This document shows positions 27,240 through 28,943 of a stretch of DNA of 64,000 bases, piece after piece. The notes below the pieces were generated by a model. It had not been told where the DNA came from and ran no database searches. It worked only from the letters and a program-made list of their open reading frames with translations. Origin of the DNA: Aristaeella lactis (GTDB lineage Bacteria > Bacillota > Clostridia > Christensenellales > Aristaeellaceae); NCBI RefSeq assembly GCF_018118585.1, contig NZ_CP069421.1, forward strand, positions 1,674,001-1,738,000. Reading direction: 5' to 3'. Each line of letters opens with the position of its first letter. Position 1 is the first letter of the stretch. The translations under genes were made by a program, and so were the position numbers.

Positions 27240-27357
27240 TTTTGTCCCTCCTGCCATCACTGCCGCCGGAGGTTCCGGCAACAGTGAGAATATATCATTC
27301 GCAACTTTTTATGTCAACTAACTCGTTGTAAAAACAGCAACAGTACAAAAGAGCCTG

Positions 27358-27387
27358 TTGACAAGCTTCCCTTTCCGGGCATATATT
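27358..27387 (+). promoter_or_regulatory. Sigma-A-type promoter of the leader peptide-paaK unit
   Basis: TTGACA (27358-27363), 18-base spacer, TATATT (27382-27387). Start of transcription is expected near 27394, about 40 bases before the leader ORF. Confidence 0.75.
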
Positions 27388-27434
27388 CTTTGCAACGGGA
27401 AAGTATAACCGTTTTCAGAAAGGGGATTTCAGCA

Positions 27435-27485
27435 ATGAAATCATTCGCGGCTATCTTCTTCTTTACCAGGTCAGCGATGGATTAA
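27435..27485 (+). CDS. Phenylalanine-rich leader peptide of an attenuator
   Basis: A 16-codon ORF, MKSFAAIFFFTRSAMD, preceded by AAAGGGG at a 9-base spacing. Four of sixteen residues are Phe, three in a row (codons 8-10, 27456-27464), as in known phe leader peptides. It sits between a good promoter and a rho-independent terminator upstream of a phenylacetate-CoA ligase gene. The stop codon overlaps the last base of the proposed antiterminator arm, so a ribosome completing translation would cover that arm while one stalled at the Phe codons would leave it free. This is strong sequence logic for attenuation by charged tRNA-Phe, though not demonstrated. Confidence 0.75.
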   Translation: MKSFAAIFFFTRSAMD

Positions 27486-27516
27486 TCAGACGCACAGAGC
27501 GCTTTGAATCCACCGC
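27474..27516 (+). promoter_or_regulatory. Proposed antiterminator of the Phe attenuator
   Basis: GCGATGGATT (27474-27483) pairs with AATCCACCGC (27507-27516) at 9 of 10 positions. The 3' arm is also the 5' arm of the terminator, so the two structures are exclusive. A separate perfect 11-base complement, GTCAGCGATGG (27470-27480) with CCATCGCTGAC (27575-27585), spans the terminator and may be a third state. Confidence 0.65.
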
Positions 27517-27548
27517 CTTTTGAGATGAAAAAAGGCGGAGGGGTTTTT
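27510..27548 (+). terminator. Attenuator terminator before paaK
   Basis: CCGCCTTTT (27513-27521) / AAAAGGCGG (27530-27538), extended outward by CC/GG past one A-A mismatch and followed by TTTTT at 27544-27548. It lies between the leader peptide and the ligase gene, 90 bases before the ligase start. Confidence 0.85.
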
Positions 27549-27638
27549 CTGAGAAACTGTCAGAGTTTACTCAACCATCGCTGACTGAAGCCCTAAGGCG
27601 CTCAGAATAATCAGGTATGATGACAAAGGAGAAATCTT

Positions 27639-28943
27639 ATGAAGAGATATTACCAGCAGGAGATTGAAACTGCTCCGCGTGAGAAAATACTGGAAATCCA
27701 GAACGAAAAGCTCGTCAAACAGATTCACCACGTCTGGGACAACGTTCCCTATTACCGTCATTTGATGGAAGAAAAGGGTCTCACACCGGATGACATCAAA
27801 ACCGTGGATGACATCCATAAGCTCCCCTTCCTCAGCAAAGCCGACCTGCGGGAAACTTATCCCTATGGCCTGCTGGGAACAGATTTGAAGAACTGTGTCC
27901 GCATTCATTCCACCTCCGGCACAACCGGCAAACGGGTCGTCGCTTTCTACACCCAGCACGATATCGATCTGTGGGAAGACTGCTGTGCCCGGGCCATCGT
28001 TGCGGCAGGCGGAACAGAAGAGGATGTGGTCCAGGTCTGCTACGGTTACGGCCTGTTCACCGGCGGTTCCGGACTTCACGGCGGTTCCCACAAGGTGGGC
28101 TGCCTGACCCTTCCCATGTCTTCCGGCAACACCGAGCGCCAGATCCAGTTCATGATGGACCTGGAATCCACGATTATCTGCTGCACCCCTTCCTATGCCG
28201 CCTATATCGGCGAATCCCTCAAGGAACAGGGTTTCAAACCCGAGGACAACAAGCTGAAAGCCGGTATCTTCGGCGCTGAACCCTGGACCGAGGAAATGCG
28301 CCGGGAAATCGAAAAGAGCCTGGGCATCAAAGCCTATGATATTTACGGTCTCACCGAGACCAGCGGCCCCGGGGTGGCCTTCGAATGTGAAGAGCAGAAG
28401 GGCATGCATATCAACGAGGACCACTTCTATGCGGAGATCATTGACCCGGATACCGGTGAAGTCCTGCCGGAAGGCTCCGTCGGCGAACTGGTGTTCACCT
28501 CTCTGGATAAGGAAGCCTTCCCGCTGCTCCGCTACCGCACCCGCGACCTTTGTGTGCTGAGCCGTAAGCCCTGTTCCTGCGGACGCACCCATGTCCGGAT
28601 GGCTAAGCCCATGGGCCGCAGCGATGATATGCTGATCATCCGCGGTGTCAACGTCTTCCCGAGCCAGATCGAGACCGTGCTGCTGAATGAAGGCTATACG
28701 CCCAACTACCAGATCGTCCTCGACCGCGAACGGAACACCGACACATTTGATATCTATGTGGAAGTCAGTCCGGACCAGTTCTCCGACCTGATGGGCCAGA
28801 TCCAGAAGATGGAGAAGGGTCTTGAATCCGCCATGCGCACCATGCTTGGCATCGGACCCAAGATCCATCTGGTAGCTCCCAAGACCATCACCCGCAGTGA
28901 AGGCAAAGCCGTCCGCGTCATCGACAAACGTAAACTCCACTGA
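27639..28943 (+). CDS. paaK: Phenylacetate-CoA ligase (arylacetate-CoA ligase)
   Basis: 434 residues, the normal length. ANL-superfamily motifs: the phosphate loop STSGTTGKR, YGLTETSG, the hinge-region acidic residue in YRTRDL and GRSDDMLIIRGVNVFP. A CxCG pair (CSCGRTH) is typical of PaaK-type enzymes in anaerobes. The reaction is arylacetate + ATP + CoA to aryl-acetyl-CoA. AAAGGAG precedes the start. In anaerobes this enzyme can feed indolepyruvate/arylpyruvate ferredoxin oxidoreductase to make aromatic amino acids from arylacetates, or run the reverse catabolic route. Control by a Phe-rich leader favours the biosynthetic direction (inference). The oxidoreductase is not in the window. Confidence 0.93.
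   Translation: MKRYYQQEIETAPREKILEIQNEKLVKQIHHVWDNVPYYRHLMEEKGLTPDDIKTVDDIHKLPFLSKADLRETYPYGLLGTDLKNCVRIHSTSGTTGKRVVAFYTQHDIDLWEDCCARAIVAAGGTEEDVVQVCYGYGLFTGGSGLHGGSHKVGCLTLPMSSGNTERQIQFMMDLESTIICCTPSYAAYIGESLKEQGFKPEDNKLKAGIFGAEPWTEEMRREIEKSLGIKAYDIYGLTETSGPGVAFECEEQKGMHINEDHFYAEIIDPDTGEVLPEGSVGELVFTSLDKEAFPLLRYRTRDLCVLSRKPCSCGRTHVRMAKPMGRSDDMLIIRGVNVFPSQIETVLLNEGYTPNYQIVLDRERNTDTFDIYVEVSPDQFSDLMGQIQKMEKGLESAMRTMLGIGPKIHLVAPKTITRSEGKAVRVIDKRKLH

Follow-up and report, generated by a model that had tools for sequence, protein, structure and literature searches.

What would a phenylalanine-rich leader peptide control when the gene behind it is a homologue of paaK? The question is raised by a short element in the window, i.e. 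the 64,000-nucleotide stretch of the Aristaeella lactis genome analysed here, where it sits between a divergent DegV-family gene and a paaK homologue (27639..28943, + strand). A sequence-only reading had proposed that this element is an attenuator, relieved by a shortage of phenylalanine so that phenylacetate can be salvaged. The 434-aa product of the gene is an AMP-forming arylacetate-CoA ligase, whose nearest solved chain, 4r1l (E 5.9e-128), is named phenylacetate-CoA ligase. Its full-length alignment to the NCBIfam equivalog model TIGR02155 scores 524 bits, below the cut-off of 646.3, and the protein is therefore called PaaK-like. The downstream partner of paaK encodes an ACT-domain pair protein of 141 aa (PF19571; 29069..29494, + strand).

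Anatomy of the element upstream of paaK

All the parts described below lie on the + strand. The element begins with a sigma-70-type promoter, TTGACA-18-TATATT (27358..27387), which matches 11 of 12 consensus bases and whose TTGACA box is also present in the upstream regions of relatives, ahead of several other leaders. A ribosome binding site, AAGGGG (27420..27425; AAGGAG in several relatives), ends nine bases before the ATG of a 16-codon ORF, MKSFAAIFFFTRSAMD (27435..27485, with the ATG at 27435 and the stop TAA at 27483-27485). This ORF contains the regulatory codons TTC TTC TTT (Phe-Phe-Phe; 27456..27464) and an extra Phe codon at 27444-27446. The 5' arm of an antiterminator (27474..27483) begins nine bases further on from 27464, the last Phe codon base, and is made of the codons for A-M-D plus the first base of the stop codon. 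It pairs at 9 of 10 positions with a 3' arm (27507..27516), around an inner hairpin (27486..27507) whose arms vary in relatives while their pairing is kept, as judged by eye. The 3' arm overlaps the 5' arm of an intrinsic terminator (27510..27548), with a stem at 27510-27521/27530-27541 (11 of 12 positions paired) and a T5 tract at 27544-27548. Promoter, ribosome site, Phe-Phe-Phe ORF, antiterminator and terminator were thus all found where the sequence-only reading had placed them. Two further details of that reading are borne out: base 27483 is common to the leader stop codon and to the last position of the antiterminator 5' arm, and the antiterminator competes for the terminator 5' arm through the shared segment 27510-27516. 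The minimum free energies of the antiterminator and terminator segments are close (-15.7 and -17.9, respectively).

The element therefore combines a short ORF with its ribosome site before a structural gene, a run of regulatory codons upstream of the antiterminator arm, and a terminator that excludes, and is excluded by, an antiterminator sharing one of its arms. Anatomically, this is a ribosome-mediated transcription attenuator of the classical kind, reading Phe codons but placed before an unusual target. The spacing of codons, stop and arms is likewise classical, and what is known of trp- and phe-type attenuation predicts how it would work. When phenylalanine is plentiful, the ribosome would reach the stop codon and cover the antiterminator 5' arm, so that the terminator would form and transcription would end before paaK. 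When phenylalanine is short, the ribosome would stall on the Phe codons and leave this arm free, the antiterminator would form, and paaK would be made.

Comparison of the window with Rfam gave no family at gathering score, and a search of 27300-27700 with E values up to 10 returned only chance-level matches (preQ1-II, E 1.4; a lncRNA, E 5.7; a miRNA, E 8.3). A T-box (RF00230) was considered upstream of the window paaK, where the covariance model found no match; the rest of the genome holds 11 T-box matches with E ≤0.001, of which 3 exceed the gathering score.

An 11-base perfect complement of the leader arm 27470-27480, overlooked in the sequence-only reading, lies past the terminator (27575..27585). 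Such a complement, 11 to 14 bases long and equalled in at most 1 of 200 shuffles, occurs with 8 of the 20 leaders examined and not with the other 12. In the full transcript, this third element would enclose the terminator hairpin. By the time it is transcribed, the choice between termination and readthrough has been made; that it protects the readthrough mRNA is no more than a guess.

Genomes contain many short ORFs and many terminator-like sites, and an ordinary terminator beside a fortuitous short ORF might be taken for an attenuator. The fold of 27385-27550 alone would leave some room for this (z -2.05, 8 of 200 shuffles as stable), whereas the longer segment 27385-27640 folds 4.4 s.d. below dinucleotide shuffles, with 0 of 200 as stable. 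Conservation provides a better test against chance than the fold.

Conservation in the genus and compensating changes

A PaaK search of 61 genomes yielded 22 loci at ≥86% identity. The sequence-only reading had suggested looking upstream of paaK homologues for an ORF containing FFF, and a leader is present at 17 of these 22 loci; 15 of the leaders have FFF and 2 have FAF. All 17 leaders have the AMD end (AMDE in L006), and the alternative pairing is also kept. Hence, the two features on which that reading had staked its claim in close relatives, the short ORF and the alternate pairing, are both conserved. The five other loci are without a credible leader: L009, L010 and L014 gave no candidate, and the loose candidates at L021 and L022 were judged not credible. 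In the PaaK tree these five form a group (SH-aLRT 94), suggesting that the leader was lost a single time. Rfam scans covered two of the five assemblies, via L180 and L181, and showed no T-box. A tRNA-Leu gene occupies the upstream region of L021. At PaaK loci of 71-77% identity (L023-L035), the conserved core of the element is absent; in several of them the end of iorB, by eye, is just upstream of paaK.

The exact pattern of the element matches 19 of the 45 genus genomes, once each save for G034, which has two matches, and the reversed control pattern matches none. A covariance model was built from 16 of the 17 leaders. Its strong matches (E ≤4.4e-19) number 23, in 22 of the 45 genomes, and 16 of these matches are the leaders that went into the model. 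Strong matches precede paaK in 21 of 23 cases, namely the 17 of the 22-locus set and those in G063, G064, G066 and G068. The two others are in G030, where the contig ends after the element and only the start of an ORF is visible, and before pheA. Such conservation of peptide, arms and terminator contradicts a chance origin, which we regard as hardly credible.

All 28 related elements examined fold both hairpins as separate segments, with the outer pairing partly by construction since the elements were chosen with a pattern holding both arms. The sequence-only reading had also proposed testing the two hairpins for covariation. By eye, the arms of the inner hairpin change in step (e.g. ACGC/GCGT, GCGC/GCGC, GCGT/ACGC, GCAC/GTGC); the outer antiterminator arms are nearly invariant within the genus. 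Single inner hairpins are weak, since 3 to 144 of 300 single-sequence shuffles reach their stability, and a MAFFT alignment left them out of register. Outside the genus, one match at E ≤0.01 was obtained among 200 genomes of the order, in G224, which belongs to another family. Its leader, MLFRYTASFFFTPQAMC (FFF...AMC), precedes prephenate dehydratase and DAHP synthase genes. In its outer arms, GCGATGTGT / ACGCACCGC, two pairs are altered on both sides, while the pairing and an A-C mismatch are kept, again by eye. The compensating changes thus appear from a reading of the folds by eye, not from a covariation statistic.

Phenylalanine elements on aromatic genes and on other paaK genes

Related attenuators precede genes of aromatic amino acid synthesis. 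In G034, the second strong match lies before prephenate dehydratase and DAHP synthase genes, with the leader MRPYVSGFFFSRSAMD. Five weaker covariance-model matches (E 2.6e-8 to 0.0016) also precede aromatic genes: chorismate mutase-prephenate dehydratase in G064, G014 and G019, and 3-dehydroquinate synthase and chorismate synthase (aroB/aroC) in G003 and G030. The leaders of these five are rich in Tyr and Phe, e.g. MFAYSYFYFYSIAMDS and MMFAYAYYYFTGAMDGRG. Prephenate dehydratase was called by PF00800 and the G030 genes by Pfam, and the G003 genes and chorismate mutase were recognized by eye. Four weak matches (G019:C109, G061:C9, G032:C36 and G014:C39; E 0.006 to 0.12) were set aside, with no aromatic gene recognized downstream. 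In these attenuators before pheA-DAHPS and aro genes of relatives (L087, L092-L096 and L257), the Phe or Tyr/Phe codon runs suit the targets.

In the window genome, a DAHPS-tyrA-pheA operon (Pfam) is preceded by a Tyr5-Phe leader, MRQVYGFYYYYYFTNCI, with a hairpin that looks like a terminator by eye (L163 9700-9853). The main aromatic operon is thus probably governed by a Tyr/Phe attenuator, and G022 keeps a similar leader, MRQAYGYYYYYFTFTKTV. The presence of Phe or Tyr/Phe attenuators on genes for phenylalanine and tyrosine synthesis argues that paaK is wired likewise, and the paaK attenuator may have been recruited from a pheA attenuator. Together, these elements make up an attenuator family whose codons match the target, with Phe for pheA and paaK, and Tyr/Phe for aro genes.

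Other Clostridia were surveyed through the best 80 paaK loci from species genomes, mostly gut and rumen Clostridia by title. An ACT gene lies downstream of paaK in 76 of these loci, and iorB precedes paaK within 600 bases in 36. Three loci (L177-L179) have leaders of the genus type; their PaaK sequences are identical to those of G063, G016 and G010, so these leaders are not new. Five (L182, L183, L185, L187 and L194) have a second, unlike Phe-rich leader before paaK, e.g. MKRDLYNNNFFFSFSFNFTDIGSKVDLLC. The end of this leader pairs with the terminator 5' arm and loop, through GGTTAAT/ATTAACC in three loci and GTTGA/TCAAC in two, and for each of the five, 0 of 300 arm shuffles were as good. A first leader scan was positive in 6 of 80 real versus 0 of 80 shuffled upstream regions. 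After loosening in the light of this result, the relaxed scan gave 8 of 80 versus 0 of 80, with one mononucleotide shuffle per region, which also speaks against fortuitous ORFs.

T-boxes, which read uncharged tRNA (here tRNA-Phe), form a third type. Rfam scans covered every locus except L177-L179 (77 of the 80) and detected a T-box over the gathering score before paaK in 13 of the 77, ending 66 to 129 bases upstream (L222, L223, L226, L228, L232, L234, L242, L246, L247, L249, L251, L252 and L253). At L256, a T-box motif before paaK scores under the gathering score. The Phe codon UUC occupies the specifier in all 14, as found by seeking that string at the expected position, and in nine it is also visible in the Rfam alignments. 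The position was calibrated on a second T-box of L249 (5885-6134), which carries the Leu codon CUG and lies ahead of a LeuA-type gene on the 3' side of paaK. In L226, L228 and L247, the T-box is located between iorB and paaK. Overall, a Phe element was identified in 22 of the best 80 paaK loci, and none was visible in the other 58 by leader scans and Rfam.

In a PaaK tree of 119 rows, made by a quick method with SH-aLRT only, each type can be separated from the other two by one change, the 76 unlabelled rows interspersed among the three types being left uncounted. The L256 row does not group with the remaining T-box rows. Given this separation, control of paaK by phenylalanine probably evolved repeatedly, which favors a biosynthetic reading, from phenylacetate to phenylalanine. 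The 58 loci with no visible Phe element weigh against this reading, as does the position of iorAB in the window genome, away from paaK and with no leader seen. We lean toward a broader view, in which control of a phenylacetate ligase by phenylalanine starvation has at least three origins among Clostridia of the gut and the rumen, through an attenuator related to that of pheA-DAHP synthase, an unrelated Phe-rich leader and a Phe T-box. Phenylacetate salvage would then be a regulated branch of phenylalanine biosynthesis throughout these anaerobes, and the ACT-pair protein would sense feedback for it. A literature search gave, among the matches listed, no printed link of paaK or phenylacetate with a leader or a T-box, nor the salvage route itself; published T-box surveys may hold a Phe T-box before paaK.

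Phenylacetate salvage and comparison with known systems

Phenylacetate is abundant in the gut and the rumen. In the mechanism that we consider highly probable, the attenuator would sense charged tRNA-Phe and control paaK and probably the ACT gene, allowing PaaK, an indolepyruvate oxidoreductase (IOR) and an aminotransferase to salvage phenylacetate to phenylalanine. PaaK would activate phenylacetate to phenylacetyl-CoA, an IOR encoded elsewhere would convert the latter to phenylpyruvate by reductive carboxylation, and the aminotransferase would yield phenylalanine. The attenuation mechanism is itself ordinary, and it is well supported by anatomy and conservation. The response to phenylalanine, the substrate and the direction of flux are inferred. 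The proposal of the sequence-only reading, a paaK controlled by phenylalanine for phenylacetate salvage, nevertheless gains support from the related attenuators before phenylalanine biosynthesis genes, and from the T-boxes and the second leader type at paaK.

The IOR genes, whose position was of interest to the sequence-only reading, could be located. IorA scores over the cut-off in 41 of the 45 genus genomes, including the window genome, where iorA (1605523-1607262) is about 94 kb from paaK. PaaA and PaaC of the aerobic route were not found in this genome. There, iorA-iorB follow another AMP-forming ligase gene (Pfam AMP-binding; L164 2437-6607). A similar AMP-ligase-like neighbor precedes iorA, by eye, in L261, L265 and L268. 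No leader is visible before iorAB in the window genome, and no conserved leader was found in the iorA upstream regions of ten genus genomes. A Phe leader scan of 30 genus iorA loci gave 5 loose candidates. The best-looking one, MKPTGLFLFFR (L148/L267), is not repeated in nine other upstream regions and was attributed to chance.

The lack of a visible iorAB leader in the window genome would fit a real, Phe-sensing attenuator whose PaaK serves another end, such as activation of 4-hydroxyphenylacetate or indoleacetate, or production of phenylacetyl-CoA not destined for phenylalanine. The sub-threshold equivalog score of the window PaaK points the same way, as does the possible breadth of ligases of this kind, the Bacteroides enzyme being called an arylacetate-CoA ligase in the available part of PMC13285125. 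We nonetheless find this alternative unlikely: each of the three kinds of RNA element before paaK points to phenylalanine, by FFF or FAF runs, by the second Phe-rich leaders and by UUC T-boxes, and iorB lies just ahead of paaK in 36 of the best 80 loci.

The direction of flux deserves separate attention, since the available text of PMC13285125 presents as unsettled whether IOR and arylacetate ligase serve to build or to degrade aromatic amino acids in gut anaerobes. In this text, the Bacteroides IOR adjoins an arylacetate-CoA ligase and a biosynthetic use is suggested; work cited there has the B. thetaiotaomicron IOR taking part in the conversion of phenylalanine to phenylacetate. PaaK and IOR could by analogy be degradative here, with the leader merely limiting the pathway. 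We regard this as very improbable. The logic would be inverse, as the attenuator would switch paaK on under phenylalanine shortage; the related attenuators precede pheA and aro genes; and AMP-forming ligases typically favor acyl-CoA synthesis, according to the same portion of PMC13285125.

Phenylacetate salvage would come in addition to de novo synthesis, given that prephenate dehydratase is widespread in the genus (38 of 45 genomes). The DAHPS-tyrA-pheA operon of the window genome likewise implies that salvage need not be essential. For gut bacteria, the available part of PMC9026213 gives the PheA and TyrA routes alone for phenylalanine and tyrosine. The element described here suggests that these bacteria of the gut and the rumen turn phenylacetate back into phenylalanine, and three unlike kinds of Phe-linked RNA before the ligase gene constitute independent evidence for synthesis. 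What is new is the unusual target, paaK, and its repeated link to phenylalanine, the attenuation mechanism itself being known.

In Clostridia, one would expect genes for aromatic amino acids to be controlled by T-boxes, and the present analysis indicates that leader-peptide attenuators for aromatic amino acids also occur there. According to the accessible part of PMC3766115, Rfam-type attenuator motifs for amino acids may have arisen in gamma-proteobacteria, with few transfers. The same-genus attenuators on pheA-DAHPS, chorismate mutase-prephenate dehydratase and aroB-aroC resemble the window element by their arms, GCGATGGAT / ATCCACCGC, and by AMD in the leader; they differ from it in their targets, in the Tyr and Phe codons of the aro copies and, for most, in a longer spacer. 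The Phe T-boxes (RF00230) of other Clostridia respond to the same signal and precede the same target gene, but they bind tRNA directly, without a leader peptide. The IOR and AMP-forming arylacetate-CoA ligase of Bacteroides, and the IOR of methanogens, share the proposed reductive, biosynthetic use of arylacetates, and in the available text of PMC13285125 they are described without a regulatory RNA.

In E. coli, the pheA leader (pheL) and the pheST leader (pheM) are both Phe-codon leader-peptide attenuators. Like them, the window element has a Phe-codon leader peptide and mutually exclusive antiterminator and terminator structures. Unlike them, with their roles in phenylalanine synthesis and tRNA charging, it would act on a PaaK-like ligase and an ACT protein, in a clostridial anaerobe.
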